Assembly: GCF_007990755.1 (NCBI RefSeq)
Contig: NZ_BJXA01000030.1
Location: 32,410 to 96,409 of the forward strand
DNA length: 64,000 nucleotides
DNA from: Nocardia ninae NBRC 108245
GTDB lineage: Bacteria; Actinomycetota; Actinomycetes; Mycobacteriales; Mycobacteriaceae
Direction of reading: 5' to 3'
Both the position numbers and the translations under genes were made by a program. A model generated the notes under the pieces. It ran no database searches, was not told the origin of the DNA, and was given only the letters and a program-made list of their open reading frames with translations. Each line of letters starts with the position of its first letter. Position 1 is the first letter of the stretch. This document shows positions 23,919-62,904 of this stretch, piece by piece.

Positions 23919-24463
23919 CACTGACAGCCGACCTCGACGCCACGACCGCAACCGGCCGAGAACCGACGCGGCCGTGGTTCACCATCGAGCACCGTGTCAC
24001 CGCCGGCGACACCAGTGCCGTTGGCCCCGTCTACTACGCCCGCCTGATCGACTGGCAGGGCCAATGCCGAGAACGCTGCGGACAATTCGGCGCCCCAATC
24101 TTCAGCAGCGACATCTCCGGCGACTACATCATGCTCACCCAATCCTGCTCCTGTGAGTACCTCGCCGAACTCTGGTTCGGCGACCTCGTCGCCATCCGGC
24201 TCACCGTTCTGTGGGTCCGAATGACCCTGATGAAAGCTGAATTCCGCTACCACCGCATCACCGCCCCCGGTGCACCCGACGGCGACCTCGTCGCCCGAGG
24301 CGAACAGATGTGGGCCAGCGCCCGCCTGGCCGGCGACCACTACGAACCCTGCCCATGGCCCCGCGAACTCGCCGACTGCGCAGCCGCGTTCGGCGCCGAC
24401 CTCAGCCGAGCCCAGATCGACGATTCATCGAATCAACCCGCACCGGAAAGGATTCCCCGATGA
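23915..24463 (+). CDS. Hotdog acyl-ACP thioesterase, enediyne type
   Basis: A 182-residue hotdog protein resembling the CalE7/SgcE10/DynE7 family that releases polyenes from enediyne PKSs. Signature parts: SAVGPVYYARLIDWQGQCRE (the conserved YY...WQG.CRE helix), then CSCEYLAELWFGDLVAIR and AEFRYHRI. Arg in the QGQCRER segment corresponds to a residue important in that family. I chose the ATG at 23915 (ATGA overlap with the PKS stop); an ATG at 23906 is in frame. It overlaps the P450 start by 4 bases. It presumably hydrolyses the PKS product from the ACP. Confidence 0.85.
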   Translation: MTLTADLDATTATGREPTRPWFTIEHRVTAGDTSAVGPVYYARLIDWQGQCRERCGQFGAPIFSSDISGDYIMLTQSCSCEYLAELWFGDLVAIRLTVLWVRMTLMKAEFRYHRITAPGAPDGDLVARGEQMWASARLAGDHYEPCPWPRELADCAAAFGADLSRAQIDDSSNQPAPERIPR

Positions 24464-30896: not shown

Positions 30897-32333
30897 GTGA
30901 GCAGCACCGAGATTCTGGACAGCCTGTACGAGCTACTGGGCATCAGGGCCGAGGAGACCGGCGGCAAGGTCACCATCACCGGTGCCGACCCGGTGACACC
31001 GTCGGTCCATCGAATCGGCGACGCCGCCGCGGCCGCGTATGCCGCCATGGGTACCGAGGTGGCCGCGCTGTGGCGGCAACGCTCTGGACAGGGGCAGGAC
31101 GTGACCGTGGATACCGCCGCGGCCGCGCACTCGCTGATCGAGCCCGGCTTCATCCGGCAAGCAGACCGGCCGGTGATCGAGTTGCTGGAAGACCCACGCA
31201 TGCTCAACACCTGCACCTTCTACAAAGCCAGGGACGGCCGCTACATCTACCTGATGCAGGAGATGCCGCACCTGCGCGATATCACCCTCGAAGTGCTGAA
31301 CTGCCCCGTCGACCGCAGAGCCATCGCCGACTCCGTGGCAAGTTGGGACGCCTTCGCCTTGGAGGAAGCCATTCAGGTGCGAGGTGGCACCGCCGCCGCC
31401 GCGCGAACCCAGCAGGAGTGGCGCGCGCACCCACAGGGACGGTTGCTCGCCGAGCAGCCCGTCGTCCGGCTGCAAAGAATCGGTGACGCGGACCCCGAAC
31501 CGTTTCCTGAACTCCCCTGCGAGGATCCACTTCCCATGAGTGGACTGAAAGTGCTCGACAACACCCATATCATGGCCGGTCCGATCTCGGCCCGCAGCTG
31601 CGCCGCCCTGGGTGCCGACGTACTGCATATCGTTCCACCACGCGGGCTGGATCCGGTGCCGATGCTGATACAGACCGGTGTCGGCAAACGCAGCGCCTTC
31701 TGCGATCTCACCGCCCCGGCTGATGTCAAAACATTCTGGAACCTCCTGCGCGACACCGACATCTTCGTCAACAGCTACCAAGGGCTCGATCGGCGAGGCT
31801 TCGGACCACAAGCGCTGATCGAACGACGCCCGGGTCTCATCTACGCCGACGTCCGCTGCTGGGGCACGACCGGCCCCTGGGGCCCACGCGGCGGATTCGA
31901 CCAGAACGCCTGCGCCGCGACAGGATTCGCTGTCGAACAAGGCAGCTTCGACGGGCCGGCACTGCCTCCGACGGTCCTGCTGGCAGACTTTCTCGCGCCC
32001 GCGCTGGCCACGCCCGCGATCATCGAAGCGCTGCGCCGCCGAGCCGAGCACGGCGGCAGCTATTACGTACAGGTCAACCTGGCCCGCGTGTACATGTGGA
32101 TCCAGGACATGGGACTGCTCGGCCGCGAACAGATCGCCGGGCTGGACCCGGTCACCACCGATCCCGATCTCCCCATACCCACCCCCGAGGTCGTATCGCT
32201 GGCGCGTCTGGTCACCCACCACGGGTCGTTCGGCGAAACCCACCACCTCCCGACCCCGATCACCTACTCCGCGATCACCCCCCACTGGGCCCGCGGTCCC
32301 GAACCTCTCGGTGCCTCACCACTGGCCTGGTAA
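30897..32333 (+). CDS. CaiB/BaiF family (class III) CoA-transferase
   Basis: A 478-residue class III CoA-transferase. The family's N-terminal-type segment appears at residues about 210-260 (GLKVLDNTHIMAGPISARSC, then LGADVLHI.PP). The region with the expected catalytic aspartate is LLADFLAPALATPAIIEALR. The first ~200 residues (AAYAAMGTEVAALWRQRSG, then QGQDVTVD) form another family-like segment, giving the two-half layout of some long members. The GTG start follows AAGGAGGT at ideal spacing. Class III enzymes move CoA between carboxylic acids. In this context it may convert a released polyketide acid to its CoA ester for the NRPS; that role is inference. Confidence 0.85.
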   Translation: MSSTEILDSLYELLGIRAEETGGKVTITGADPVTPSVHRIGDAAAAAYAAMGTEVAALWRQRSGQGQDVTVDTAAAAHSLIEPGFIRQADRPVIELLEDPRMLNTCTFYKARDGRYIYLMQEMPHLRDITLEVLNCPVDRRAIADSVASWDAFALEEAIQVRGGTAAAARTQQEWRAHPQGRLLAEQPVVRLQRIGDADPEPFPELPCEDPLPMSGLKVLDNTHIMAGPISARSCAALGADVLHIVPPRGLDPVPMLIQTGVGKRSAFCDLTAPADVKTFWNLLRDTDIFVNSYQGLDRRGFGPQALIERRPGLIYADVRCWGTTGPWGPRGGFDQNACAATGFAVEQGSFDGPALPPTVLLADFLAPALATPAIIEALRRRAEHGGSYYVQVNLARVYMWIQDMGLLGREQIAGLDPVTTDPDLPIPTPEVVSLARLVTHHGSFGETHHLPTPITYSAITPHWARGPEPLGASPLAW

Positions 32334-33141: not shown

Positions 33142-34131
33142 TCAGGCGGTGGCCCCGGGGGCGCTGAATGACGCCGTGAGGACCTCGTCGAGTATGTTGT
33201 TGAACTGCTCGTAGGCCTCCACCGTGCCCCAATGCCCGGTTGGGAGGATCGATAGCTTTTGGAAAGATCCTGCTTCTCGGAGCATTTCGGCGATCCGCTG
33301 GGAATGTACCGCAGGAATCATGTGATCGTCGGCTCCGGCCGTCAATGTCGTTGGCATGGTCAGGTCGACCGCGGCGCGGCCCAGGTCGAGGTCGGCGAGT
33401 AGGAGGCCGAACTTCGCCCGCGCTTCGTCCGGACAGCTCTGTGCGATGGACAGTGCGAAGTCGGCGATATCGTTGGTCGCGGCCGGGCTCAGGATCCGGT
33501 GACGTAGTAGCCATTTCGTTCGAGCGTTCGGCCGCATCGGGGCCGAGGACCCGAGCAAGGTGCGGCCGATCCAACGGGGAAGTTTCAGCCAACCGCGGTT
33601 GAACAGCGGTATCAGAGTCGTCGCGCCGAGCAGATCGCCGGCGCCGGTGTTGGCCAACAGCACCGCGGCCGCGAACCGGGGGGCCTGTTCCGGATCCCGT
33701 GCTGCCCATGCTTGCACCGCCATCCCGCCCAGGCTGTGCCCGACCAGTACCGCCCGCTGCCCCGGCCGAAGTGTCGCGGCCAGCACCGCGGCCAGATCAT
33801 CGGCCAGCAGTTGGGCGGTCAGTGCGCTGTCGCCGAGCTCGCTCTCACCGTGGCCGCGCAAGTCATAGGCGACGACGCGATAGTCGCCGGCAATGGCGTT
33901 GATCTGCGGATTCCAGTATTCGATACGACACGCCCAACCGTGAATCAGCACGACCGTATCGCCCTCGGCAGGCCCATACGCGTGCACCCGCAGCCGCGCA
34001 CCGTCGGAAGCGGTGACCGGAACGACTTCACACGCAGCGACCGGCGGATTGAGCGCATCGGTCGAGTAGACCCGCGTGTGCAGCAGGGCTGAATCTGGGC
34101 TCGAAACGGTGATCGGGGGCCTGGCTCGCAT
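33142..34131 (-). CDS. Alpha/beta hydrolase
   Basis: A 329-residue alpha/beta-hydrolase. It has the oxyanion HGWA (VVLIHGWACRIEYW), the region YDLRGHGES, the nucleophile GHSLGG (Ser about residue 148), an acid in TAGADDHMIP and a C-terminal histidine in LPTGHWGTVE, so the triad is complete. The ATG at 34131 follows GAGGGGA; a start 48 bp upstream is in frame but lacks a site. It is divergent from the NRPS gene. It could be a tailoring esterase, a proof-reading hydrolase or unrelated to the cluster. Confidence 0.85.
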   Translation of the reverse strand: MRARPPITVSSPDSALLHTRVYSTDALNPPVAACEVVPVTASDGARLRVHAYGPAEGDTVVLIHGWACRIEYWNPQINAIAGDYRVVAYDLRGHGESELGDSALTAQLLADDLAAVLAATLRPGQRAVLVGHSLGGMAVQAWAARDPEQAPRFAAAVLLANTGAGDLLGATTLIPLFNRGWLKLPRWIGRTLLGSSAPMRPNARTKWLLRHRILSPAATNDIADFALSIAQSCPDEARAKFGLLLADLDLGRAAVDLTMPTTLTAGADDHMIPAVHSQRIAEMLREAGSFQKLSILPTGHWGTVEAYEQFNNILDEVLTASFSAPGATA

Positions 34132-34757
34132 AGCAATTCCCCTCACATCGGCAAAGTAGGTAACCACAGAGTAGCTCAAATAGTTCTGACGCAGCGGCAG
34201 TGCAAGTCGAGATTCATCTCGATTCAGCAGTTCGGCGCAATTATTTAGCAGCTACACCGAGAAATGAAGTGTTATCCACTTGCACGACACCGCCGCCTGA
34301 GTGCACGCCTGATCGTCGCCGGACAAGCCATGGACCCGACGGCACCGGCGAGTCGGCCACGATCCTGCTGTGCCCCGGTGACTCCGGCGCGACACCGCCG
34401 CCGATCCCCCGCGCCCCGGCGTATAACTGCGGTTCACCGACCTCGACGGGCTCCAGTTGACCGCGTTCGTCACCAACGCCACCCGCCGGGCTGCCCGGTT
34501 GATGATGCTCGCGTGGGTCACCCCCAGGATGGGATGCATGCCACCCCGAGGCGGCTGGGTGGCCGACCGTTCGATCATATAGATTCCCTAGGTATGGGTC
34601 GTGTCCCATGAGGCCCGCGCGGACTTGTCTCGGTCTGGTCATAATGGCACTGTTGGAGTCGATAATTCTCTTCCTCGTGCCCGTTGACCGGCTTTAGCGG
34701 TTATCACCGAAGCGTTTGCTCTCGGATCACATCGTCGGTTGCCGGAGAGGATTTCGA
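34132..34757. other. Divergent intergenic region before the NRPS
   Basis: About 630 bp that must hold the promoters of the hydrolase and the NRPS. It also contains a transposase-like fragment at 34427-34582 (listed separately). At its right end GGAGAGG (34744-34750) lies seven bases before the NRPS ATG. No operator palindrome stands out. Confidence 0.5.
34427..34582 (+). pseudogene. Possible IS1380-like transposase fragment
   Basis: An open frame of 51 codons reads LRFTDLDGLQLTAFVTNATR, then RAARLMMLAW before a stop. The FTDxDGxxxTAFxTN pattern resembles the C-terminal catalytic part of IS1380-type transposases. The similarity is short and the flanks are not coding, so this is a tentative relic call. 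Confidence 0.4.
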
Positions 34758-37700
34758 ATGAGCGCGTATTCCAGACACCCATTGACCGCCTACCAGCGCG
34801 ACATCTGGGTGGCCGAATCCTACGCGCCCGCCGCAGATCCGCAGTTCAACATCGCTATTTGGCGCCGATTGCAAGGCGATGTCGATACCGAGGTATTGCT
34901 GGCCGCATTTAAACGGACACTATTCCGTAATGACGCCTTCGCGCTTCGTTTCGGTGAGCGCGACGGGCAGCCGTTCCAGTGGGTCGAGGTGGAGCAACCG
35001 CAGGTGGAGATAGTCGATTTCGCCCTGGCGCCGGACCCGGCTGCGGCGTGTGCGGACTGGCGAGACCGCGATTGTCAGGAGGCGTTCTCGCTGCGGCACA
35101 GCCGGATGTATCGGGCCGCCCTGCTGAGGGAGAGCCCGACGGTCGTCTATGTCTATCTGAAGGCACACCATCTCGTCACCGACGGCGCCACACACGAATT
35201 GGTGCTCAGCCAGATCTCGGCCGATTACGAGCAGATAATGCGGAACGGTAAGCCGCTCGATATCACCGTGCCGTCCTATCTTGCCGCCGTCGAGTCCGGC
35301 GCACGCTACCGGGCAAGCGCCGACCACGACGCAGACCTCGAGTTCTTCCGAGCCGCACTGGCCGATGTCTCCCCCGCCTTGTTCACCAGGAAAACCGGCG
35401 CTCGGTCGGTCCGCATGAAGCGCAACGGGCTCTACACCTTCACCGTCGCCCCGGAGTTGGTGGCTGGGATGCGACGGGTCGGCGGCTCGCAGTTCGCGTT
35501 CCTCTCGGCGGCCGTCGCGACGTATCTTGCCCGGGTACACGGCGTCGCCGACATCGTGCTCGGCGTTCCTTTCTTCAATCGGCACACCGAGGACGACTGG
35601 GCCACCGCCGGTTTGTTCGTGAACGACCTGCCGTTCCGACTGGCCGTTCATGATGCGGTGTCGATGCGGGAACTCGCGGTAGCGGCCCGAGCGACTACGC
35701 GCGCCATGCGGGACCACGATCGCCCCGGAATCGGCGACATCGTTCGTGCGCTACGGCGCAGTGGCACTGCAGTGCGGCAGCTGTACGACGTCACGGTCAC
35801 CTATCAGCCCTACCATCATGTCGCTCCGCTTGCGGAGATCAGCATGACGGATTGGGGCGCCGCGCCGTTGCACAATCAGGAGGCGCTGTCGGTGCGGGCC
35901 GTGGCGGTGGACGATTCGGGCGCGCTCACCATCCTGCTGGATTACGCGCTCGATGTGTTCGATGCGGACTTTCCCATCGAGGCCTGCGCGCGGCACCTGC
36001 GGAACCTCATCTGCAATGGCGTCGAGCATCCCGATGAGCCGGTCTCCGGTCTGTCGATGCTCACTGCCGCCGAGCACGCCGATCTGGCGTATGAAAGGCA
36101 AGGGTTTTCCGTCGAGCGGTCCGGCACACCCACACTGTCCGGCTTATTCGAGCGGCAGGCCGCCCGCACGCCGGACCGGGTAGCGATTGTGGGCGGAAAT
36201 ACCGGTGCGCCGGTCACTTTCGGCGAACTCGCGGCCCGTACCGACAAGGTCGCGCGCGCGTTGCGTGCGAGTGGTGTTCTGCCCGACGACCGGGTGGCGG
36301 TACTACTCCGACGAAGCACGGAGATGATCGCGGGCCTGCTCGGCGTCCTGAAATCCGGTGCGGCGTACGTGCCGATCGATCCGGGATACCCGGTCGATCG
36401 AATCCGCTTCCTGCTCGCCGACAGTGGAGCCGCGGTGGCGCTGGTCGATCGCGATTTCCGGATGCCGCAGCTCGATGGCGAGGTGCGGGGAATGTTCATC
36501 GATGAGGTGCTGGCGGGTCCCGCTGGAGAACTGGAATTAGTGGGCACCGACCGTAATCTGGCCTATGTGATCTATACCTCGGGCTCGACCGGCAAACCCA
36601 AGGGAGTGATGGTCGAGCACCGTTCAGTGGTCAACCGGCTCGCCTGGATGCAGCGGCGCTACCCGATCGGCGCCGACGATGTTGTGTTGCAGAAGACTCC
36701 GATCTCGTTCGATGTCTCGGTGTGGGAGTTGTTCTGGTGGGCGATCGAAGGAGCGAGCGTGGCACTGCTACCGCCGGGCGGCGAGAAGGATCCGCTGGTG
36801 CTGCTGCAGGCAATCGCCGAGAATCGGGTCACCGTTCTACATTTCGTGCCGTCGATGTTCGGGCCGTTCCTCGACCTGCTCGAATCCTCGCCGCACCGAA
36901 GGACACAGGCAAGCTCGCTTCGGGGGGTGTTCTGCAGCGGCGAGGCGCTGCCGCCTGCCCGAGTCGCTCAGTTCAACCGAGTCTTCGCTGACCGACGGGA
37001 CGGTGCGCCCAGGTTGGTGAACTTGTACGGACCGACCGAGGCCACTGTCGATGTCTCCTATTACGACTGCCCGGACCACCCGGTCGATCGGGTTCCGATC
37101 GGGCGGCCTATCGACAACATTCGCCTGTACGTGCTCGACCCGCATCGCCAGTTGCAACCGATCGGTGTCCCCGGCGAGCTGTATATCGGTGGGGTCGGTG
37201 TCGCGCGCGGCTATTTGAACCGCCCAGAGCTGACCGAGGAACGGTTCATCGAGGATCCCTTTGTGCAGGGTGCCTCGCTGTTCCGGACCGGGGACGGCGC
37301 GCGGTGGCTGGCCGACGGCAACCTGGAATTCCTCGGACGACTCGACACACAGGTGAAGATCCGAGGCAACCGGGTGGAGCTCGGCGAGGTCGAGAACGCG
37401 CTCACCGACATTCCCGGAGTGCGCGATGCCGTCGTGGTGAGCAACGAATCACCCACTCGTGGCACATATCTCGTCGGCTACTACGTCGCCGAGGCCGGGC
37501 AGACGCCCGAGCAGAGCCGCGAGGCTCTGGCGCAAACCCTGCCGGAGTACATGATCCCCTCACAGCTCATCCGGATCGAGCGGATCCCACTGAGCCCGAA
37601 CGGTAAAGCCGATCGTCGGGCCCTGCCTGCCGTCGAAAGATCCGACGAGGCCGGCGCCGCGCCGCGCAACGCGACGGAGGCGACCTTGGCCGACATTTGG

Positions 37701-40700
37701 GCGGAGGTGCTGGAGAAGGACCGGGTCGGCATCCATGACGACTACTACCTCTCCGGCGGCGATTCCATCCTGATGCTGCGGATTCGTTCGGCGGCAGAGC
37801 AGCAGGGAATTCACTTCTCGCTCAACGATCTCACCCAGCACCCGACCGTCGCAGAGCTCGCGACCCGGGCGACCATCGGTCCTTCGGCGGGCACCGGCTT
37901 GCGGCCGTTCGAGCTGGTGTCCGCGGTGGACCGTGCGGGGCTGGAAGATGCGGTCGACGCCTACCCCGTCAGCCGCATGCAGCTCGGTCTGCTCTACTAC
38001 AGCCGCGTTCAGCAGACCTCGGCGATGTACCACGATGTCTTCCAGTACAGCTTGGTCATGCCATGGGACGACGAGCGATTCCGGCACGCCTTCGACCTGC
38101 TGGTGGCCCGGCATCCGGTGCTGCGCACCAGTTTCGATCTCGGCGGGTTTTCCGAACCGCTGCAAATCGTGCATCGGATGGTACGGGGCGGTCTCGAGAT
38201 CGTCGATCTGCGTTCGCGCGGCGACGAGGATGCCCGGACCGCGATCGATGAGCACATCGAACAGCGGCGCGTGTACCCCTACCGGTTCGACCGGGCGCCG
38301 CTCTACCTGTTCCAGATATTCGTCCGCCGGTCCACCGTGGAGCTCGTGCTCAGTTTCCACCACGCGATCCTCGACGGAGGCAGCGTCGCCAACCTCGTCA
38401 GCGAGTTGTTGCAGGACTATGCGCACGGACTCGGGACAGCTGTCGAGCCCGTCGCCGACCGCGTATTGCCCTCGGCGGCGGAATATGTGCGTGCGGAGCG
38501 ACGCGCCCTGGAAAATGCTGAGACACAAGAGTTCTGGCGCAACCTGCTGGACGGAGCGCGCTTGGTCCAGCCGCCCGCCTTCCGCCCGCATGGCCTCCCC
38601 GGACCGGACGTTGTCATCACCCGTCAGATCGAGCTGGCCGACGAACTGACCGACGCTGTAAGAGCATTCGCGCGGACTGGAAGAACGACTCTGAAATCCT
38701 TACTGTTCGCGGCTCATTGCGCGACCTTGGGCCTGGCTGCGGGGACGACCGACGTCACGACCGGCCTCATCACGCACGGCAGGCCGGAGCTGGCCGAAGC
38801 CGAACGCATTGCCGGACTGTTCCTCAACACCATTCCGCTACGGGTAGACACCGCGGCAACCAGCTGGCTGGAATTGGTACGCGACGCGTTCCGCGCCGAG
38901 CAGCACACCCATCCGCATCAGCGCTATCCACTCAGTGCCATCCAGCAGGATCTCGCGGGCACCGTGCTGGACACGGCATTCAATTACGTCTATTTCCGCC
39001 AGCTGGCCGCGGCTCTCGAACTGCCGGGCATCGACATGATCGATTACCGTACTTGGGAAGAAACCAACCTCACCCTGTTGGTCAACGCTTACGCCGATCC
39101 ACTCGACGGACCGATCCGGCTGCGAATAGATTGCCGGAGCCGCGTTTTCACCCCAGAGCAGGCTGACCTCTACACCCAGCAGTTGCTCGCGGTGCTGCGC
39201 CGCATCGTGACGCACCCCGACGAAGCACCGGATTTCGCCTTCCTCGCCGAGGACCTCCTGGTGCGGTCGGCCACGGTCGACGCGACGGTCGACGTCGCTG
39301 CCGCCATCGACGCCTGGATCGCGGCGGCCCCGCGCGCTCCCGCTATCACCTGCGGTGACCGACAGTGGAACTATCGGGAATTGGGCGATGCCGCAGACCT
39401 GGTGGCACAGCGGCTGTTGGCGGCAGGATCCCAACCCGGCGACCGGATCGGGATCGCGATGGAGCGCACACCCGAAGCTATCGCCGCGATCGTGGGAGTA
39501 CTGAAATCGGGCGGCGCCACGGTTTCCCTCGACACCAGCTATCCACCGCAACGGATCGCGGCCATGGTGGACCGAGCCCGCCCCTTCCTGGTGATCGCCG
39601 ACGCCGCGGCGACGCACCTGCTGCCTGAGCAGACCGTCGTACTCCGCGCCGAGGAAATCTTCACCGGCACAGCCGAATCCGGCGTACGACCGCTGCCCGA
39701 GATCGACCAGGACAGCATCGCCTACGTGCTGTTCACCTCCGGCTCCACCGGCGCGCCCAAGGCAGTCGCGATGCCGCATCGCTCGCTCGCCAACCTGGTG
39801 GCCTGGCAGAACCGCAGGCCCAGCGGTGCCGTCGGCGGCATCACCGCCCAGTACGCACCGCTGAGCTTCGACGTGTCCTTCCAAGAGATCTTCTCGACCC
39901 TGTGCGGCGGCGGCACCCTGTCGTTGATCTCCGACGAAGATCGACGCGATATTCCTGCGCTGCTGCGTGTGTTGGACAGCGAAGGCGTGCAACGGATCTT
40001 CTTGCCCTACGTCGCCCTCCAGCAACTGGCCGAGACGGCGGCCGCGCTCGACAGCTGGCCACGCAGTTTGCGGATTCTGGCCTCATCCGGAGAAAAGCTG
40101 TTGGTAACCGACGCGATTCGGCGACTCTGCGCCCGGTTACCGGGGGTGATCCTGGAAAACCAGTACGGCCCCACCGAAACACACGTTGCCGCAAGCTTTT
40201 CCATGACAGGGGACCCGGCAACGTTCCCGGCGCTGCCGCCGATCGGGACCGCGATCGACAATGCCGCAGTGCATGTTCTCGATGCACGGCTGCGTCCGAT
40301 GCCGCTCGGTGCGCAAGGCGAAATCTATCTCGGCGGTAGCTGCCTGGCCGAGGGATACCTGGATCAGCCCGAACTGACTCGCGAACGATTCGTGCCGCAT
40401 CCGTCCTTGCCCGACGGGGCCCGGCTCTACCGCACCGGCGACCTCGGCTTCGTCTTACCCAGTGGCGACGTGGTGTGCACCGGCCGGGTCGACGCGCAGG
40501 TCAAGGTCCGGGGCTTCCGGGTCGAACCGGCCGAAATCGAGCTGGCCATCACACGTTTCGCCGACGAGGGCCACCCTGGCATCACCGAGGCGGCCGTCAC
40601 CGTGCGCCGCCGCGCGGGAAACGATTCCTTCCTAGTCGCTTTCCTGGTCGGCGAGCCGGACCGCGCGGACATGGATCAGCTCGGCAAGCACCTGCGCGCT

Positions 40701-41927
40701 CTCTTACCTGAGTACATGGTGCCCACGCATTTCGAGTGGCTGCCTGTCCTGCCGTTGACCCCGAGCGGGAAGCGTGATGACGCCGCGCTCGACCGGCTCA
40801 CGCTCACCACGCCTGTCTCGTCGTCCGCTCCGCCGCGGGACGACTACGAACGCGCGCTGGTAGAGATCGCCGCGGACCTGCTGCAGCAACCGGCAATCGG
40901 CCCCCAGGACAACATCTTCGACCTGGGCGCCACCTCGCTGACCGCGATGCGATTCGTCGTTCAGGTCGAGCAGCGCTTCGGGCTCACTATCCCGCTGTCG
41001 GAGTTCTTGGTCGCGCCGACGGTCGCCGCGCTCGCCGAACGGCTGCGTCTGGGCGCGGCGGACGCGGTGTTCGATCCGCTGGTGCCGATCCGTGCCCGCC
41101 GACCGATGTTCTTCGTACATCCGTTGGGCGGCAACGTGTTGTGCTACGTGCCCCTCGCCAAACGACTCGACCGCGACGTTCCGTTCTTCGGTCTGCAAGC
41201 CGCCGGTGCCATCGCGGGCACCGAACCGCTGTCGACCGTTCCCGAACTCGCTGCCTATTACCTCGAATCCGTTCGGCGCGTGCAACCGCACGGCCCCTAC
41301 ACGCTCGGCGGCTGGTCGTTCGGGGGCCTGGTTGCCTTCGAAATGGCCAGGCAACTACGGCAAGCCGGCGAACAGATCGCGGACCTCGTCATCCTTGACA
41401 CCGTCGTGCTCGATCCGGCCCGGCAAGCCGACCTGGACATCGAGGACCCCGACGACACTGCCAAGGACATCCTCGTGCGATATTTCTTCTGGGAACTGCT
41501 GCTGCTGCAACGGGGCAGCGACTCCAAACCGGAGACGCTCGGCGAATTCAGCACCCAGGACGACACATTCGAGTACATGGCCGAACTCGCGGTGCGCGAA
41601 GGGGTGCTCCCCGCGGGCAGCACCAAGGCTGTGATCCGCAGGCTCTTCGGTATCTACGCGGCGAACACGCGCGCCATTCTCACCTACCGGCCCGAGGCCA
41701 TCGACGTGGACGTGACGCTGCTGCGCGCCACCGAACCGCTGCCCGAAGTGCTCGAGTTGTTGCACCGCACCGGGGGCAGCATGAACGACGACCCCGCCAA
41801 CGGCTGGGGAGACCTGACCACCGGACGGCTGACGGTGCTCGCTGTTCCCGGCAACCACCTCTCGATCGTCGAGGAACCGCACGTCGCCCAAGTAGCAACC
41901 CTGATCAACGACCTGATCGGAGGATGA
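34758..41927 (+). CDS. Two-module NRPS C-A(Ser)-T-C-A(Pro-like)-T-TE
   Basis: A 2389-residue synthetase; the ATG at 34758 has GGAGAGG at good spacing. C1 (10-450) has HHLVTDG (His138, Asp142) and, being first, is a starter-type C that would load an acyl chain. A1 (about 460-960) reads, at the ten specificity positions, D-V-W-H-F-S-L-V-D-K, the classic serine code. T1 is GGDS (Ser1003). C2 (about 1070-1500) has HHAILDGG (His1201/1202). A2 (about 1530-2010) reads roughly D-V-Q-F-A-S-Q-V-A-K, nearest to proline codes but not exact. T2 is GATS (Ser2060). TE has GWSFGG (Ser2187). Layout and codes match legonmycin, pyrrolizixenamide and brabantamide synthetases. The product would be an acyl-Ser(dehydro)-Pro-type dipeptide. 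Confidence 0.95.
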   Translation: MSAYSRHPLTAYQRDIWVAESYAPAADPQFNIAIWRRLQGDVDTEVLLAAFKRTLFRNDAFALRFGERDGQPFQWVEVEQPQVEIVDFALAPDPAAACADWRDRDCQEAFSLRHSRMYRAALLRESPTVVYVYLKAHHLVTDGATHELVLSQISADYEQIMRNGKPLDITVPSYLAAVESGARYRASADHDADLEFFRAALADVSPALFTRKTGARSVRMKRNGLYTFTVAPELVAGMRRVGGSQFAFLSAAVATYLARVHGVADIVLGVPFFNRHTEDDWATAGLFVNDLPFRLAVHDAVSMRELAVAARATTRAMRDHDRPGIGDIVRALRRSGTAVRQLYDVTVTYQPYHHVAPLAEISMTDWGAAPLHNQEALSVRAVAVDDSGALTILLDYALDVFDADFPIEACARHLRNLICNGVEHPDEPVSGLSMLTAAEHADLAYERQGFSVERSGTPTLSGLFERQAARTPDRVAIVGGNTGAPVTFGELAARTDKVARALRASGVLPDDRVAVLLRRSTEMIAGLLGVLKSGAAYVPIDPGYPVDRIRFLLADSGAAVALVDRDFRMPQLDGEVRGMFIDEVLAGPAGELELVGTDRNLAYVIYTSGSTGKPKGVMVEHRSVVNRLAWMQRRYPIGADDVVLQKTPISFDVSVWELFWWAIEGASVALLPPGGEKDPLVLLQAIAENRVTVLHFVPSMFGPFLDLLESSPHRRTQASSLRGVFCSGEALPPARVAQFNRVFADRRDGAPRLVNLYGPTEATVDVSYYDCPDHPVDRVPIGRPIDNIRLYVLDPHRQLQPIGVPGELYIGGVGVARGYLNRPELTEERFIEDPFVQGASLFRTGDGARWLADGNLEFLGRLDTQVKIRGNRVELGEVENALTDIPGVRDAVVVSNESPTRGTYLVGYYVAEAGQTPEQSREALAQTLPEYMIPSQLIRIERIPLSPNGKADRRALPAVERSDEAGAAPRNATEATLADIWAEVLEKDRVGIHDDYYLSGGDSILMLRIRSAAEQQGIHFSLNDLTQHPTVAELATRATIGPSAGTGLRPFELVSAVDRAGLEDAVDAYPVSRMQLGLLYYSRVQQTSAMYHDVFQYSLVMPWDDERFRHAFDLLVARHPVLRTSFDLGGFSEPLQIVHRMVRGGLEIVDLRSRGDEDARTAIDEHIEQRRVYPYRFDRAPLYLFQIFVRRSTVELVLSFHHAILDGGSVANLVSELLQDYAHGLGTAVEPVADRVLPSAAEYVRAERRALENAETQEFWRNLLDGARLVQPPAFRPHGLPGPDVVITRQIELADELTDAVRAFARTGRTTLKSLLFAAHCATLGLAAGTTDVTTGLITHGRPELAEAERIAGLFLNTIPLRVDTAATSWLELVRDAFRAEQHTHPHQRYPLSAIQQDLAGTVLDTAFNYVYFRQLAAALELPGIDMIDYRTWEETNLTLLVNAYADPLDGPIRLRIDCRSRVFTPEQADLYTQQLLAVLRRIVTHPDEAPDFAFLAEDLLVRSATVDATVDVAAAIDAWIAAAPRAPAITCGDRQWNYRELGDAADLVAQRLLAAGSQPGDRIGIAMERTPEAIAAIVGVLKSGGATVSLDTSYPPQRIAAMVDRARPFLVIADAAATHLLPEQTVVLRAEEIFTGTAESGVRPLPEIDQDSIAYVLFTSGSTGAPKAVAMPHRSLANLVAWQNRRPSGAVGGITAQYAPLSFDVSFQEIFSTLCGGGTLSLISDEDRRDIPALLRVLDSEGVQRIFLPYVALQQLAETAAALDSWPRSLRILASSGEKLLVTDAIRRLCARLPGVILENQYGPTETHVAASFSMTGDPATFPALPPIGTAIDNAAVHVLDARLRPMPLGAQGEIYLGGSCLAEGYLDQPELTRERFVPHPSLPDGARLYRTGDLGFVLPSGDVVCTGRVDAQVKVRGFRVEPAEIELAITRFADEGHPGITEAAVTVRRRAGNDSFLVAFLVGEPDRADMDQLGKHLRALLPEYMVPTHFEWLPVLPLTPSGKRDDAALDRLTLTTPVSSSAPPRDDYERALVEIAADLLQQPAIGPQDNIFDLGATSLTAMRFVVQVEQRFGLTIPLSEFLVAPTVAALAERLRLGAADAVFDPLVPIRARRPMFFVHPLGGNVLCYVPLAKRLDRDVPFFGLQAAGAIAGTEPLSTVPELAAYYLESVRRVQPHGPYTLGGWSFGGLVAFEMARQLRQAGEQIADLVILDTVVLDPARQADLDIEDPDDTAKDILVRYFFWELLLLQRGSDSKPETLGEFSTQDDTFEYMAELAVREGVLPAGSTKAVIRRLFGIYAANTRAILTYRPEAIDVDVTLLRATEPLPEVLELLHRTGGSMNDDPANGWGDLTTGRLTVLAVPGNHLSIVEEPHVAQVATLINDLIGG

Positions 41928-41928
41928 C

Positions 41929-43107
41929 ATGGTTCGGGACAAGCGCACGAAAGTCATTGTGGTAGGGGCGGGTATCGGTGGACTCACCGCCGCCATCGCG
42001 CTGCACAAGCTCGGCGTCGACGTCGAGGTCTACGATCGGGTTCCCGAGCTGAAGGCCGCCGGGTTCGGGTTGTCCGTCGCGGGCAACGCCAACACCGCGC
42101 TGCACAGCATCGGCCTCGACCTTCGCCTCGAAGAACGCGGCCAGGTCGTCAAGTCCTACCAGATCCGGAGCTCGACCGGCCGCTTGCTGCGGACCCTGCC
42201 CTACCCCGAGGCAATGGCCGGGGTGCCCAAAGCCAGTGTGCTGATCAGTCGCACCGATCTCCAACAGGCGATGTTGGAGCACGCGGGTGACATTCCGATC
42301 CACCTCGGTGCCGCCGCGATCGGGTATCAGACCGACCCGGACTCCGGCCGGGTGCGGGTGGAGTTCGCCGAGCATCAGACCGCTGACGGCGACGCACTGA
42401 TCGGCGCGGACGGCATCCACTCGGCGATCCGCAGGCAGCTGGTCGGGCCGGGCGACGAAGAACGCTATGGCGGGTACATCTCCTGGCTGTCGATTGTTCC
42501 TTTCGAACATTCGAGGTTCGGTACCGGCTCGGTCACGCACTACTGGGCCAAGGGACAACGCTTCGGACTGATCGACATCGGTCACGGAAGCGCCTACTGG
42601 TGGGCCACCAAGGAAATGCCCGAAACCGAGGCCAGGAAATGGAAGGTCGACAAGGATGAGATCGTCCGCGCTTACGCGGCATGGCCCGATGAGGTACGAG
42701 CTGCCATCGAGGTCACACCCGAGGACACGATTCTCGGCGTTCCGGAAAGTGACCGGGCGTTTCTGGAACGGCGCGGCGAGGGCCCGGTCACCTTGCTCGG
42801 CGACGCCGCACACCCGATGCTGGCCAGCCTCGGCCAGGGTGCCGGCATGGCCATCGAAGACGGCGTCGTGCTGGCGCGCCACCTTGCCAGTGCACCCGAC
42901 GCCCCGACCGGGCTGCGCCGATACGAGTACGAACGGCGGGACCGCACCCGCACGATGCTCAACACCGCGCACCGCGTCGCAGCCTTCGAACAAGGCGCGA
43001 GCACACTGCGAAGGATCTTGCGCGACACAGCGATCCGAGTGGCGCCCAAGCGGCAGCTGATCCGCGAACTACAGGAAGCCCTCACCTTCCCCGGCGCGAC
43101 CCTATGA
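41929..43107 (+). CDS. FAD-dependent monooxygenase, candidate Baeyer-Villiger-type partner of the NRPS
   Basis: A 392-residue class A flavoprotein monooxygenase: GxGxxG at VIVVGAGIGGLTAAIALHK, the DG motif in ALIGADGIHSAIR, and the GD motif in VTLLGDAAHPMLASLGQGAG. It starts one base after the NRPS stop, and the GGAGGATGACATG junction supplies the ribosome site, so the two are translated together. In legonmycin (LgnC), pyrrolizixenamide (PxaB) and brabantamide (BraC) systems, a flavoprotein encoded beside the NRPS oxidatively rearranges the released bicyclic dipeptide, giving pyrrolizidines in the first two. That role is proposed here from context. Confidence 0.9.
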   Translation: MVRDKRTKVIVVGAGIGGLTAAIALHKLGVDVEVYDRVPELKAAGFGLSVAGNANTALHSIGLDLRLEERGQVVKSYQIRSSTGRLLRTLPYPEAMAGVPKASVLISRTDLQQAMLEHAGDIPIHLGAAAIGYQTDPDSGRVRVEFAEHQTADGDALIGADGIHSAIRRQLVGPGDEERYGGYISWLSIVPFEHSRFGTGSVTHYWAKGQRFGLIDIGHGSAYWWATKEMPETEARKWKVDKDEIVRAYAAWPDEVRAAIEVTPEDTILGVPESDRAFLERRGEGPVTLLGDAAHPMLASLGQGAGMAIEDGVVLARHLASAPDAPTGLRRYEYERRDRTRTMLNTAHRVAAFEQGASTLRRILRDTAIRVAPKRQLIRELQEALTFPGATL

Positions 43108-43411
43108 GCGAGCACGCGACCAGATAACGCAGTGAACGACCCGTTCACTCCCCAATATTCCCGGCCGGAACTCGCTCACCGGCGCGTAGATTCACACCCG
43201 GAAAAGAACCTCACCGCCCACCGATCACAGCGAGTGTCGGTGCCACCGAGTATTTCGCCCTCGCCCCCAGCGTCGCACCACCCCCTAAGGGTCTCATGGG
43301 TGACCACGCACGGTGTTCGGGATTCGGTTGTCAGAGGCTTGCCAAGGCTCTTGGGGGTAACACTTCCGATACTCACCGCTGAATTTGTGAGATGAGAAAG
43401 CTGTATAGCGG
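43108..43411. other. Convergent intergenic region
   Basis: About 300 bp between the converging monooxygenase and AveC-like genes. I see no gene and no strong hairpin with a U-tract, although a bidirectional terminator would be expected here. Confidence 0.4.
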
Positions 43412-44380
43412 TTATCGTCCCGGCCATATCCAGCCAGGGGTGTCCGCGGGTACCGGACCGGTGCCCAGTAGGGGCACGCAGGCGACTAGGACGACGTAGA
43501 CGAACATGATCACGTTGGCATATCCGATTCCTGCGGCCACGCGCACTGCCGCTTGGGTATGCGAGGTGAGGTGCTCGGTGCCACGAAAGATGTGGGGGAC
43601 GCTGCCTCGCTGCTGCGCGCGGTAGGCCATGAACGTGGTGGGGGTGCAGAGCAGAAGTCCACCGATCAGAACGTTGGGCAGGGGAATCTGGTACCAGTGG
43701 CCGCCGAACAAGGACAGCGAATGGTTCGCGAGGGGATAGGCGTAGGCGCCGCAGACCGAGACGAAGAGTAGTTCGACGACTAGATCGACGAGGAAGCCGC
43801 TGACGACGAGTACGGCCAGAATTCGAGCGCTCCCCCAGTGCGGCCATTGTCGTCGCACCACGCTCAGACACAGCGATTGCAGCCAGACCCAAGAGACGAC
43901 GAGGGGGAACATAAACATCTGCGCCGCGAGCAACGTCTCTATGTGTGATCCGGGCAGGTTCGGATGCCAGCCTGGAATGTGGTGACCCCAGCTGACGACA
44001 TTGAGCGCGTAACGGTTGGAGATCGGGGATGGGTAGTGGTAAGCCATGATCGGGCTGAGCCACCACGTGCAGAAGTTTCCCCAGAAGGCGATGGCATACA
44101 GCGTGACGGTGCGAGTTTGCCGGTACTGCCACCAGAGCACAGCTGCGACTGCTACGAGTCCGATGGCCATCGCCGCCTGCTCAATCCAGACGGGGGCGAT
44201 TCGCGTTGTGGAGATGACGTAGTCGTGGACGGCCGCGTGCATGCCGTCCTCAGCGAGCCAACGGCCCAGCAGCACGCACTGAGCGATGAGGGCGGCGGCG
44301 CCGAGTGCCGCCCACACCGCTGCCGGTGTTGTGCACTGCCGTATGCGGGAGTCGGATGTCAGCCCGATCGTCGTGTTCAC
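43412..44380 (-). CDS. AveC-like (spirocyclase family) membrane protein 1
   Basis: A 322-residue polytopic membrane protein with about seven spans (for example AVWAALGAAALIAQCVLLGRWL, AMAIGLVAVAAVLWWQY, MFMFPLVVSWVWLQSLCLSVV, ARILAVLVVSGFLVDLVVELLF, YANVIMFVYVVLVACV). Between spans it carries AFWGNFCTWWLSPIMAYHYPS, WGHHIPGWHPNLPGS and LFGGHWYQIPLPNV. The same blocks occur in the gene at 53803. This fits my memory of the AveC-like family; AveC shapes the spiroketal in avermectin. The GTG start at 44380 overlaps the stop of the flavoprotein gene (GTGA). The open frame extends 483 bp upstream inside that gene and is not coding. Confidence 0.75.
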   Translation of the reverse strand: MNTTIGLTSDSRIRQCTTPAAVWAALGAAALIAQCVLLGRWLAEDGMHAAVHDYVISTTRIAPVWIEQAAMAIGLVAVAAVLWWQYRQTRTVTLYAIAFWGNFCTWWLSPIMAYHYPSPISNRYALNVVSWGHHIPGWHPNLPGSHIETLLAAQMFMFPLVVSWVWLQSLCLSVVRRQWPHWGSARILAVLVVSGFLVDLVVELLFVSVCGAYAYPLANHSLSLFGGHWYQIPLPNVLIGGLLLCTPTTFMAYRAQQRGSVPHIFRGTEHLTSHTQAAVRVAAGIGYANVIMFVYVVLVACVPLLGTGPVPADTPGWIWPGR

Positions 44381-45798
44381 GGGAGGTCCTCTCGCGGCAG
44401 GGCCGATAGGCCGGCGACGGGCCGCGTGGCCGCGCGTTCGGTTCCTTTCGGCGCGCCGATCGGTTCGGGTGGTTCGGGCGGGACCGGTTCTTGCGGCGGG
44501 CGCTGCCGCGCGGTGCGGGCTACGAGGGCAGGGGTCACGAGAGATGGCGGTGAGCGCAGCATGTTGAACACTTCGATGAAGCGGTGTTGTACGTGCGGAT
44601 CGACGGTGCCGGCCAGCTGAACGCGGTCGATATGCCTGCCGAGTGCCCGCTGCAGGTATAGCGGGATATTGCTGCTGACACCCGGTCGTCGTGCGTCCGC
44701 GGACGTCGCGACCAGCCAGGGCGACAAGGTCAACAACGCGAGTCTGCGCTGGAACGCCAGTGCCATCCGCGCCGGATCGTGGTGGCGCAGTATCTGTTCC
44801 AGTAGTACGGCCGACCGTGCCGCGGCGCTCATGCCTTGTGCGTAGAGAGGGTTGAAGCTGCACGCCGCGTCGCCGAGACGGACGAGATTGCGGGGTTGGT
44901 TATGGCTGAAACGCGCGCGGCGGCTGCTGGTGGATCGACTGGCTGTGATGGGTGTCAGCGGTTCGCTCGCGACGATCGTTTCGGCAACCACAGGGCTGGA
45001 CAGGCTGCGGGCGAATCGCAGGAATTCGTGCTCGGTGCGGGCTGGATGGTCGGATCGCTGACTGAGCAGGGTGATCAGCCACCGGTCGCCTTCCACCGGC
45101 ATCACGGTGGCACCGCGCGCCCGTTCGTCGAGTCCGAGCTGGATGTAGCAGGCCTGCCAGTCCGGGTGATGGCCGGAAGGTTTTCGATAGATCCGACTGG
45201 TGTAACCGACACCGGAGTCGATGATATCGACCGCGGGTTGCGGATACCCGAGCTCGGCGAGCCATCGGTCTGCCCGCGATCCCCGACCGGTGGCGTCGAT
45301 GACCAAATCGGCCGCCAGTTCGGTGCCGGCTCGTACGCCGGCCTCGCTGACTCGCACGGCCGCGATCGAGTCCGCGGCAGCGACCAGCCCGATACAGCTA
45401 TGTCGCTGCAGCACAGTGACATTGGCAAGATCGAGGACATGGCTGCGGATAGCCCATTCCACCAGTGCCCTGCTCGCGCCGAGCGCAGGGATGCCGGAGG
45501 GGAAGCGAACACCCCAGCCGAACGTGTTTCGCAGCACGACGTCGCTAGCGAAGTCGTACATCGTCGCACCGTGGCCGACGAGGGTGGCCAGGAAACCTGG
45601 CACCAGGTAGTCGATGTCGCGCTGACCCGCGGCCAGCAGCGCGTGCACGTGGCCGGCTTGCGGAACCCCGGCCCGGTGCCCCGGCCCGGTCGACAGTTCG
45701 TCACGCTCGACGATGACGACAGAGTCCATGTGATGTGCGGCGGCCGCACCCGCGAGCAAGCCCGCGATACCACCGCCGAGAATGACTGCCGTATTCAT
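44377..45798 (-). CDS. FAD-dependent oxidoreductase paired with AveC-like protein 1
   Basis: A 473-residue flavoprotein. The Rossmann motif is AVILGGGIAGLLAGAAAAH (residues 3-22). A conserved RAGVPQAGHVHALLAAG follows, then VIDATGRGSRADRWL and the GD-type motif VRLGDAACSFNPLYAQGMS. It is a paralogue of the gene at 52322: both share the PQ..H.H.LL..G block, the DATGRGS motif and the GDA.C..NP.Y.QGM motif. The start is the ATG at 45798, after GGAAAG. The substrate is unknown. Pairing with an AveC-like protein at both sites suggests a joint oxidation/cyclisation step. Confidence 0.85.
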   Translation of the reverse strand: MNTAVILGGGIAGLLAGAAAAHHMDSVVIVERDELSTGPGHRAGVPQAGHVHALLAAGQRDIDYLVPGFLATLVGHGATMYDFASDVVLRNTFGWGVRFPSGIPALGASRALVEWAIRSHVLDLANVTVLQRHSCIGLVAAADSIAAVRVSEAGVRAGTELAADLVIDATGRGSRADRWLAELGYPQPAVDIIDSGVGYTSRIYRKPSGHHPDWQACYIQLGLDERARGATVMPVEGDRWLITLLSQRSDHPARTEHEFLRFARSLSSPVVAETIVASEPLTPITASRSTSSRRARFSHNQPRNLVRLGDAACSFNPLYAQGMSAAARSAVLLEQILRHHDPARMALAFQRRLALLTLSPWLVATSADARRPGVSSNIPLYLQRALGRHIDRVQLAGTVDPHVQHRFIEVFNMLRSPPSLVTPALVARTARQRPPQEPVPPEPPEPIGAPKGTERAATRPVAGLSALPREDLP

Positions 45799-46618
45799 CG
45801 GTCTTTCCTTTCCGGCAATCAGCGGCCACATGCCGCCGGATCATGATTGATGCCGATCTCGGCGCTCGGCGCGAGCTGAGCACGCAACACCGCAATCCGC
45901 GCCAAGCAGATCGGCTGCATGAATTGATCTTCAAATAGAGTCGAACCGGTGATTCCCAAGGCCGCACTGCGGACCAGAAACGCCAGCTCATCGCAAACTC
46001 ATAATGCGTGTTCGCCCGGCCGTAGTGCAACAGCATTTAAAACAATCTGGGTTGCGAAATGTTCGCTGAAGTCGATAGATCCTCCGGAGCGGCGCATTCG
46101 GACAACGGCCTGGGCGGCGAGCATCTTTGCGGATGTCATGCGCCGGCAAGTCGCTGCAGGACGATTACGCCGGGCGTGTCATGCGGCCACCCTCGAGCGT
46201 GTCCGCTTCAATGCGGGTGGCCGCGTCGACAAGACCAGCAACACGCCCAGATTACCGGGATCGCCGATGTAGCCGATCCGTTATCTTTCGGCGGGCACGG
46301 TGTAGCTGAGCTGGCGCTGGTCTGTCGACGTTCGGCATTTACCGTGAGAGAGACCGCCCTGCAGCCGGATTGCCGGGACTTCGCGGTCTGTGACCTATCG
46401 GCGATGTCCGGGTGACCGGTACGGTACTGCCCGCATTGCACCGCTGGACATGGGAAGTTATTTACCCGAGCATTGGAGCAGGGCATTTCCTCTCCGATCC
46501 GCCGCCTGTCCCGCTGAAACCTTCCCGGGCCATTCCATGGTCGCGGCCATTCGCTAGACCGTCTCAGTCGAGCCTGCGATACGCGCTCGATAAGTGTCAC
46601 CTTTTTACGGAGGTAGTC
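45799..46618. promoter_or_regulatory. Divergent promoter region, right copy
   Basis: About 820 bp between the flavoprotein gene and the small DUF5988-like gene, without a convincing gene. From 45930 onward it is the right arm of the inverted duplication. Conserved stretches include CGCATTATGAGTTT (inverted, near 45996) and a frame RRIRTTAWAASIFADVMRRQ near 46075-46140 also seen in the left arm. CGGAGG at 46608-46613 serves the small gene. Confidence 0.6.
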
Positions 46619-47245
46619 ATGGAAGCTGTCGAAGATCCCCTATTGTCAAAAATGGATCATGTGCCGGATCGGATACTGATAGTTTTGACGGGCGCGCCTG
46701 CCGGGCTTCGGCAGACGATGATGGTCGAGGCGGATGATATTTCAGACGGGCGTATCACGGTGGATTACCGTGGCCGACACCTGCATTTCATCGCCACGGA
46801 TGGGCTGGAGATGGTGGGACAGCCCCCTGCGATCACCACGGCGCCGGTCTATCGCCTGTCTTATGTGACGAGCATCGCCGAGTAGCGGCATACGTTTCGT
46901 TCGGCTTCCTCCAGCACAATTCTGAATTCGATATCACCGAGCCCTGCGTATCCGAGGAGTTTCTGTGTCTGCTTCGAATAGTGTTCCTATTGCGGTTGTG
47001 GGTGTGGGTTGTCGTTTTCCCGGTGGTGTGGAGTCTTCGGCTGGGTTGTGGGATTTGGCGGCGGCCGAGCGCACGACAGCGGGCCCGGTGCCGCCGGGTC
47101 GGTGGGATGCCGGTGCGCTGGCTCGTGTGCATGATCCTGAGTTGGCTGAGCGTGCGGGATTCGGGTGTTTTCTCGAGGGTGATATCTGGGCGTGGGATCC
47201 GGGGGCGTTCTCGGTGGCTGCGTTGGAGCAGCGGTGGGTGGATCC
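45930..47245 (+). repeat. Right arm of large inverted duplication
   Basis: Inverted homologue of 15980-17465. It covers the divergent promoter region, the 88-codon small gene and the first ~90 codons of the PKS. Identity by eye is highest in the small gene and PKS start and lower in the promoter part. The match ends near 47245, at the codons WVDPQ, where the left copy is broken. Confidence 0.85.
46619..46885 (+). CDS. DUF5988-like small protein, right copy
   Basis: An 88-residue protein (MEAVEDPLLSKMDHVPDRIL...VYRLSYVTSIAE) with the ATG at 46619 after CGGAGG. It is the near-identical partner of 16341-16607. It sits 79 bp upstream of the PKS GTG and is presumably in its operon. No catalytic motif is present. 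The DUF5988 resemblance (small protein with a YRGRHLHF-type strand and a PVYR...AE end) is tentative. An accessory or regulatory role for the PKS is plausible. Confidence 0.75.
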   Translation: MEAVEDPLLSKMDHVPDRILIVLTGAPAGLRQTMMVEADDISDGRITVDYRGRHLHFIATDGLEMVGQPPAITTAPVYRLSYVTSIAE

Positions 47246-52262: not shown

Positions 52263-52321
52263 CCCGCAACCCCCGAACCCGAAACCCCCGAACCCGATTC
52301 GGTCACGGCAGGCGCGACGCG

Positions 52322-53746: not shown

Positions 53747-53802
53747 CGGTCACGACCGGGAGCAGTCATGACTCTCGCCGAATCGCCGACAGGAGCCCTG
53801 AA

Positions 53803-61946: not shown

Positions 61947-61947
61947 G

Positions 61948-62862: not shown

Positions 62863-62904
62863 CTCGAACTCCCTTCGGTAATCGGTGACACACAGCAAGG
62901 CGGT

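Follow-up and report, generated by a model that had tools for sequence, protein, structure and literature searches.

The window is a 64,000-nucleotide stretch of DNA from Nocardia ninae NBRC 108245. It contains a gene for a bimodular non-ribosomal peptide synthetase (NRPS) of 2389 residues, followed on the same strand by a gene for a flavin-dependent monooxygenase that begins one base past the NRPS stop codon (TGA-C-ATG), a spacing already given in a first-pass annotation of this DNA and confirmed here.

A bimodular NRPS and an adjoining monooxygenase

The NRPS reading frame extends from 34716 to 41927, and the ATG at 34758, preceded by GGAGAGGA, is the likely start. Both frames have coding-type GC3. 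A scan of 34150-43500 for promoters and terminators gave nothing above shuffled sequences (0 against a mean of 1.5; 2 against 4.8). The features are as follows.

34758..41927, plus strand: bimodular NRPS (Pfam; start and stop context; relative in Nocardia genome G021, 63% identical)
34776..36095, plus strand: C1, condensation domain, predicted acyl-CoA acceptor of presumed starter type (motif HHLVTDG; family C1 clade)
36132..37631, plus strand: A1, adenylation domain with serine code DVWHFSLVD(K) (specificity residues)
37671..37865, plus strand: T1, carrier domain (Pfam; GGDS)
37950..39230, plus strand: C2, condensation domain, predicted to convert acyl-serine to acyl-dehydroalanine (motif HHAILDG; family C2 clade; LgnD precedent)
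39291..40799, plus strand: A2, adenylation domain with proline-type code DVQFASQVA(K) (pattern in 24 of 24 NRPSs)
40851..41051, plus strand: T2, carrier domain (Pfam; LGATS)
41100..41924, plus strand: TE, thioesterase, predicted to release by cyclisation (Pfam; GWSFGG)
41929..43107, plus strand: FAD-dependent Baeyer-Villiger-type monooxygenase of the LgnC/PxaB kind, 392 residues (Pfam; triad; trees)
42538..42603, plus strand: active-site set H204/Y223/W225 within H-x18-YWWATK, equivalent to LgnC H200/Y219/W221

The domain order C-A-T-C-A-T-TE claimed in the first-pass annotation was borne out by Pfam (two Condensation, two AMP-binding, two AMP-binding_C, two PP-binding and one Thioesterase match), by motif positions and by domain extraction. 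The tenth code residue, Lys, was assumed rather than read; the motifs NGK and SGK are present in the sequence. As first proposed, module 1 carries a serine code: A1 reads DVWHFSLVD(K), which we take to be the serine code of EntF. The proline-like code proposed for module 2, and with it the predicted capacity to form a bicycle, also stood. The A1 serine pattern together with an A2 pattern DVQ[FY]xSQVx was found in all 24 NRPSs compared, including that of Xenorhabdus hominickii. Proline is thus the predicted A2 substrate by analogy with PxaA, which is reported to load proline (PMC11794875).

Affinities of the monooxygenase and the condensation domains

The monooxygenase matches FAD_binding_3 in Pfam (95 bits). 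Its top NCBIfam match is a urate hydroxylase of the HpxO type, at 227 bits against a cut-off of 500, and its best PDB matches likewise suggested a urate or other aromatic hydroxylase. This assignment was rejected because of the active-site triad, the pairing with the NRPS and the trees.

H204, Y223, W225 and the YWW-x-TK element are spaced as reported for LgnC, where activity is abolished by H200A or W221A and reduced by 95% in Y219F. The last residue of the published motif YWWxTKN is E in the window enzyme. The YWWxTK motif was not taken as sole proof; pairing and tree were checked too. All three residues were present in 65 of 75 family rows and in 0 of 76 other monooxygenases, the latter being L053-L055 and 73 of the 74 non-triad loci in genome_contigs (one match was too short). 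The family is not uniform, since ten of the 75 rows are without one of the three residues; His is replaced in eight rows (seven Gln, one Leu). Within the window's own genome there were 28 monooxygenase matches, eight of which were read for the triad.

Among 80 class A monooxygenase loci listed from genome_contigs, six (L056-L060 and L116) contained the pattern H-x18-[YF]-x-W, and among the matches listed a C-A-T-C-A-T-TE NRPS preceded the monooxygenase in all six. No such NRPS was seen beside the other 74 listed loci, 13 of which are shorter than 15 kb.

In a tree of 48 rows (38 family, 10 other monooxygenases), in which Xenorhabdus relatives took the place of authentic LgnC, PxaB, BraC and AzeC, the family formed a single clade with support of 100/100 that includes 11 Xenorhabdus and six Streptomyces/Marinactinospora enzymes. 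A narrower clade of 23 rows (96/93) joined the window enzyme to all 11 Xenorhabdus rows used. Another tree sampled most fused Nocardia enzymes at one row in four and included 22 of the 76 other monooxygenases. The window enzyme is 44% identical to that of X. hominickii. The kinship with LgnC, PxaB and BraC on which the first-pass annotation depended therefore holds, through relatives from the genus of PxaB and through the LgnC H200/Y219/W221 set.

The condensation domains were placed in a tree of 20 family loci and 26 C domains from ten stretches of the window's own genome, out of 88 matches available. Here, Xenorhabdus relatives stood in for PxaA, BraB and LgnB, and the Xenorhabdus genomes examined for NRPSs were G541 (two pairs) and G543 only. 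C1 sits with three Xenorhabdus C1 domains in a family clade of 19 C1 domains (support 100). C2 sits with three Xenorhabdus C2 domains in a family clade of 22 C2 domains (support 97, in the tree without the LgnD C2 and AlbB C domains). The family C1 clade joins five C domains from the window's own genome, all of them the first to be extracted from their respective frames (support 99), but further first-extracted domains fall elsewhere in the tree. From this placement C1 is probably of the starter type.

Distribution in Nocardia and beyond

The monooxygenase is present in 61 of 148 Nocardia genomes. Of the 60 other than the window's own, 59 also have an NRPS in the same stretch; in the remaining one (G087) none was found in the stretch retrieved around the monooxygenase. 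In 45 of these 60 genomes the monooxygenase is fused to a condensation-like domain, whereas the window enzyme is unfused. Two genomes, G012 and G021, encode assembly lines with extra C-T units. A plasmid from Streptomyces sp. YIM 121038 also carries a homologous pair. Since homologous pairs recur in so many other genomes, the pairing is not a matter of chance.

Wider sampling, with no more than four scored candidates per genome among the rows listed, returned few relatives. Across 396 Actinomycetota genomes (E 1e-60) there were at least seven matches, two in the window's genus and five in family f18; the latter share 37-39% identity and are without the triad. Across 398 Pseudomonadota genomes (E 1e-90), G541 itself was the only one among the matches listed, and the 15 pattern matches in viral_contigs included no relative.

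A proposed two-gene pathway and its alternatives

We consider it very probable that the pair constitutes a two-gene pathway to an N-acylated azabicyclic alkaloid of the PxaAB/BraBC kind. The chemical steps, acyl donor and final ring system proposed here are drawn from the relatives. A1 would load serine on T1, and C1 would join an acyl-CoA to it. C2 would then dehydrate the acyl-serine to acyl-dehydroalanine, a dehydration that has been shown for the C2 domain of LgnD, and condense the product with the proline that A2 has loaded on T2. Attack by the enamine carbon would release the chain from the TE as a bicyclic 5+6 indolizidinone, and the monooxygenase would insert oxygen beside the ketone to give a 5+7 oxazepine-dione. 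The latter could become a pyrrolizidine via hydrolysis, loss of CO2 and recyclisation; alternatively, it could yield a lipocyclocarbamate or be trapped as a 5+7 carbamate.

The window pair is a new member of an already known pathway type, similar pairs being found in many Nocardia genomes. The first-pass annotation held that several known systems have exactly this pair. For PxaA/PxaB (pyrrolizixenamides, Xenorhabdus stockiae) this is correct: there, too, two genes encode an acyl-Ser-Pro C-A-T-C-A-T-TE NRPS and then an FAD monooxygenase, and expression of pxaAB in E. coli is reported to have given the product. The indolizidinone reported for PxaA is C14H20N2O3 (m/z 265.155), which by its carbon count has a six-carbon acyl chain; a different chain length would change the mass by multiples of CH2. 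The likeness extends to the A2 pattern, which recurs in the X. hominickii pair, and to the monooxygenase, which groups with Xenorhabdus enzymes. The host, however, belongs to a different phylum, and the 44% identity refers to X. hominickii rather than to X. stockiae. BraB/BraC (brabantamides) are similar by published description, which is how BraC was compared, in the bimodular NRPS and the first oxidation. For the legonmycins (LgnA-D, Streptomyces sp. MA37) the claim failed. The monooxygenase active-site residues and reaction type agree, but there the NRPS is split between LgnB (A-T) and LgnD (C-T-C-A-T-TE), with a type II thioesterase, LgnA, and threonine as substrate, whereas the window has one bimodular NRPS with a serine code. 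The azetidomonamide/azabicyclene, clipibicyclene and metaze systems are described as related in their NRPS logic and as giving bicyclic or carbamate products, but the azetidine-2-carboxylate that they use comes from an AZE synthase. A Pfam scan of 27 window proteins gave no methyltransferase-type or ClpP-type match.

The first-pass annotation had predicted a pyrrolizidine-type alkaloid. Triad, tree and codes support the bicyclic acyl-Ser-Pro pathway; the choice between pyrrolizidine and cyclic carbamate is not one that can be read from the genes. A product that is mainly a brabantamide-like lipocyclocarbamate or a stable 5+7 carbamate is a real possibility within the same pathway, albeit somewhat short of an even one. 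BraC and PxaB are reported to have substrate and first product in common, with the outcome set by enzyme and side chain (PMC11177316), and some systems of this type are known to make stable 5+7 carbamates. Brabantamide A, however, is described as rhamnosylated, and no glycosyltransferase match occurred among the 27 window proteins scanned.

It is improbable that the pair belongs to a larger hybrid cluster, with C1 receiving its acyl chain from a polyketide synthase at 46965-52262. This synthase begins 3.9 kb past the monooxygenase gene and has Pfam matches to KS, AT, DH, KR and carrier domains but none to a thioesterase, which could leave its chain free to be handed to another enzyme. Opposite-strand genes, however, lie at both sides of the pair (33142-34179 and 43412-44374). 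Furthermore, tblastn (1e-15) found a ketosynthase at 0 of 64 other Nocardia pair loci, in 0 of six additional flanking stretches from the three nearest relatives and at 0 of eight loci of other genera, that is, in 0 of 78 other stretches; the 63 Nocardia loci measured extend a median of 9.4 kb beyond the pair, mostly on one side. The hybrid cluster was accordingly set aside, and because no ketosynthase occurs at the 64 other Nocardia loci, the nearby polyketide synthases look like neighbours. The first-pass annotation knew no comparable case from such an organism in a PKS-rich context: the context does appear peculiar to the window among the loci tested, but the organism is no exception, given 61 of 148 Nocardia genomes.

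That the pair makes an ordinary acyl-dipeptide, with an unrelated hydroxylase happening to follow, is very unlikely: the best named matches of the flavoprotein are indeed hydroxylases and other monooxygenases, but its triad and trees, the pairing in 59 of 60 other Nocardia genomes, and that in six loci of named organisms and on the Streptomyces plasmid all argue against it.

The azabicyclic pathway is a concrete two-gene alkaloid prediction in Nocardia, and the wider count suggests that much of the genus encodes such compounds. The main texts of two surveys of the genus nevertheless contain no word beginning 'pyrroliz'. The chances seem to us evenly balanced that Nocardia holds an extensive family of azabicyclic alkaloid pathways that has so far gone unreported, with the window representing an unfused lineage and with some products of novel scaffold, among them acyl-trapped bicycles and the products of the extra C-T units in G012 and G021. 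The condensation-like domain fused to the monooxygenase would add a step of a kind not described in the literature consulted on these systems. Related compounds are reported to act as inhibitors of the ClpP protease or of the lipoprotein-associated phospholipase Lp-PLA2.

The gene pair, its codes and its predicted chemistry

The NRPS gene extends from an ATG at 34758 to 41927, in a frame open from 34716, and encodes the domain order C-A-T-C-A-T-TE. The flavin monooxygenase gene (41929-43107) begins one base past the NRPS stop (TGA-C-ATG), with GGAGG immediately 5' of that stop. Both the architecture and the one-base spacing claimed in the first-pass annotation were found. The pair is flanked by:

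33142-34179, strand opposite to the pair, alpha/beta hydrolase gene
43412-44374, strand opposite to the pair, AveC-like protein gene

From this layout, the NRPS and monooxygenase genes look like a two-gene operon.

The A1 specificity residues conformed to DVWH[FIV]SL[VI]D in all 24 NRPSs compared (window and 23 relatives). This pattern is a predicted serine code, as previously proposed for module 1, with EntF taken as our reference. The A2 residues were DVQ[FY]xSQVx, again in 24 of 24. The proposed proline-like code for module 2 is supported by analogy, through the presence of this pattern in both the window and the Xenorhabdus hominickii NRPS, together with the reported use of acylated serine and proline by PxaA (PMC11794875). 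Since the A2 domain of PxaA is reported to take azetidine-2-carboxylate when fed (PMC11794875), a cyclic proline analogue is possible for the window A2 also.

In the C-domain tree, 19 family C1 domains formed one clade (support 100) and 22 family C2 domains a separate clade (97). Three Xenorhabdus domains lay inside each, alongside the window C1 and C2 respectively. The C1 clade was joined (99) by five C domains of the N. ninae genome, each the first extracted from its frame; other first-extracted C domains fell elsewhere. This grouping fits a putative starter-type C1. Dehydration by C2 has been reported as demonstrated for LgnD (PMC8748450), and we infer from its position that the window C2 would act likewise. 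A C domain with the same HHAILDG motif as the window C2 (L241 frame at 325, minus strand, contig C13 of N. ninae) was sister to the family C2 clade, and may mark a second dehydrating NRPS in this genome. Extra C-T units were seen in the NRPSs of two Nocardia relatives, G012 (C-A-T-C-T-C-T-C-A-T-TE, L052:4440-15059) and G021 (C-A-T-C-T-C-A-T-TE, L176:10511-19495).

By analogy with relatives of the pair, from which every chemical step is derived, an acyl-CoA and serine would be joined, and the acyl-serine dehydrated to acyl-dehydroalanine and condensed with proline. Cyclising release would yield an indolizidinone, whose Baeyer-Villiger ring expansion would give an oxazepine-dione and, from this, a pyrrolizidine or carbamate. 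The original reading of a pyrrolizidine-type alkaloid pathway is upheld with three corrections. The predicted alkaloid pathway stands, but its final ring system may be either a pyrrolizidine or a carbamate. The asserted exact match to known pairs does not extend to the legonmycin system, whose layout differs from that of the window pair. Rarity and polyketide synthase (PKS) linkage are also corrected below.

Monooxygenase active site and phylogeny

LgnC is reported to require H200, Y219 and W221 (H200A and W221A are inactive and Y219F loses 95% of activity), residues stated to be absent from other BVMOs (PMC11457151). YWWxTKN and GDAAH are given as marks of LgnC-like enzymes (PMC7820566). The window monooxygenase possesses H204, Y223 and W225 with spacing identical to this triad, together with YWWATKE (published YWWxTKN) and GDAAH. 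W225 was kept in 75/75 family rows versus 3/76 rows of other monooxygenases, Y223 in 73/75 versus 34/76, H204 in 67/75 versus 0/76, and the full set in 65/75 versus 0/76. R211, at the LgnC R207 position, was kept in 75/75 family rows and Q355, near LgnC Q350, in 74/75. Among the 8 N. ninae loci read, out of 28 monooxygenase matches, the window enzyme alone carried the triad; the next-best match in this genome was only 34% identical. The key histidine was replaced by Gln (7) or Leu (1) in L043, L176 and L178-L183, with the NRPS still adjacent; the chemistry of these members may differ.

Paired enzymes occupied one side of a branch in a 73-row tree (SH-aLRT 99), and formed a clade with 100/100 support in a 48-row tree built by a careful method. 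Here the window enzyme clustered with those of G021 and G012 (100/100), inside a 23-row clade (96/93) that took in every Xenorhabdus row (11) and every Streptomyces/Marinactinospora row (6) in the tree. The window enzyme thus lies among the paired enzymes, with Xenorhabdus relatives standing in for PxaB. In G021 and G012, a second, divergent family monooxygenase directly adjoins the first (L029:12520-13719 and L052:16543-18813).

Distribution of the pair

A profile search of named organisms' contigs, with a 9-row alignment as query, returned at least 80 loci. Among the 80 listed, H-x18-[YF]-x-W was present in six (four Streptomyces, Marinactinospora and X. hominickii), each with a C-A-T-C-A-T-TE NRPS preceding the monooxygenase. 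Neither the pattern nor such a neighbour was seen in the other 74 listed, 13 of which are shorter than 15 kb and so may not extend to a neighbour. Six of the 74 had some adenylate-forming or C-like ORF within reach, in one case (L121) a different multimodular NRPS.

The monooxygenase was detected in 61 of 148 Nocardia genomes, N. ninae included (E 1e-60), and all other Nocardia sites were fetched (64 loci, 60 genomes). An NRPS frame matching family A domains lay in the same stretch in 59 of these 60; the stretch fetched from G087 (L171) held no NRPS. The pair is therefore common in Nocardia, contrary to the rarity implied earlier. All seven domains were recognised in a single frame in 47/64 loci; the others were truncated at the end of the stretch or contig, divided between two frames, without a recognised T2, TE or C1, expanded by C-T units (L052, L176) or without NRPS (L171). 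In 45 of the 60 genomes (L032, L033, L136-L159 and others), the monooxygenase frame runs on into a C-terminal condensation-like domain, which was fused or within the stretch in 54. This domain carries HHAVGDG in protein P0001, and the fusion recurs in Streptomyces loci L028 and L059; it may acylate or trap the bicycle.

Elsewhere, 396 sampled Actinomycetota genomes gave 7 matches (E 1e-60), 2 in Nocardia and 5 without the triad. No match at 1e-90 was found in 397 sampled Pseudomonadota genomes other than G541, a Xenorhabdus genome with two pairs. Matches occurred in 18 of 30 Xenorhabdus genomes (E 1e-50), the NRPS side being inspected in two; pyrrolizixenamide clusters are reported from X. stockiae and X. 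szentirmaii. The L028 pair resides on the 968 kb linear plasmid pSSP121038 of Streptomyces sp. YIM 121038 amid transposase genes, a sign of mobility.

Judging by its title, a 2022 paper by Culp reportedly concerns a widespread family of ClpP inhibitor gene clusters. Clusters with LgnC-like enzymes are described as widely distributed among bacteria (PMC7820566), and according to a synthesis paper 90 strains or more, from 23 species that include both Gram-positive and Gram-negative bacteria, have relatives of PxaB (PMC7871033). In the texts examined on Nocardia with pyrrolizixenamide or brabantamide, Nocardia appeared only in reference lists. Titles and abstract openings on Nocardia with pyrrolizidine or related product names yielded no recognised report of such a pathway in the genus, and a term search of the main texts of two genus-wide surveys (PMC7413640, PMC12153302) found no word beginning 'pyrroliz'. 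The pair belongs to an already known kind of pathway, of which the window is a further member; the genus-wide spread and the fused monooxygenase of its relatives are of greater interest.

Polyketide synthase surroundings

Two PKS loci lie in the window:

46965-52262, PKS with KS, AT, DH, KR and carrier domains, starting 3.9 kb past the monooxygenase gene
17722-23918, second PKS locus

The PKS-rich context had been stressed; in the loci searched, no linkage of a PKS to the pair was seen. A ketosynthase search (1e-15) that recovers those of the window found none in the 64 pair loci from other Nocardia genomes, in 6 additional flanks taken from the three nearest relatives, or in 8 loci from outside the genus. 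The 63 of the 64 Nocardia loci that contain both genes extend beyond the pair frames by a median of 9.4 kb, for the most part to one side, and the search would not have reached a PKS lying further away. When 36 window ORFs were compared with 57 kb of G021, the nearest relative (1e-10), only the NRPS (63%) and monooxygenase (71%) matched; the NRPS search also gave a weak A-domain match elsewhere. The gene pair is conserved as a unit; unless the opposite is shown, the PKS counts as a neighbour.

Just upstream of the G012 NRPS (L048:9382-12595) lie homologues of two proteins encoded within window 61074-62898, one a 3-hydroxyacyl-CoA dehydrogenase (50%) and the other unnamed (47%), as well as a CoA-transferase with 34% identity to window 30897-32333; acyl supply or coincidence are possible explanations. 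Two flavoprotein and AveC-like (spirocyclase family) gene pairs flank the PKS at 46965-52262 (43412-45831, minus strand; 52226-54807, plus strand). Ketosynthase fragments in two frames at 15983-16269 (minus strand), of which one shares 86% identity with the ketosynthase of the PKS at 46965, lie near a phage-type integrase gene (14542-15558). The region 17722-26067 encodes an unusual split PKS: an AT-ACP protein, then a KS-KR-DH protein somewhat similar to PUFA synthases, then a P450.
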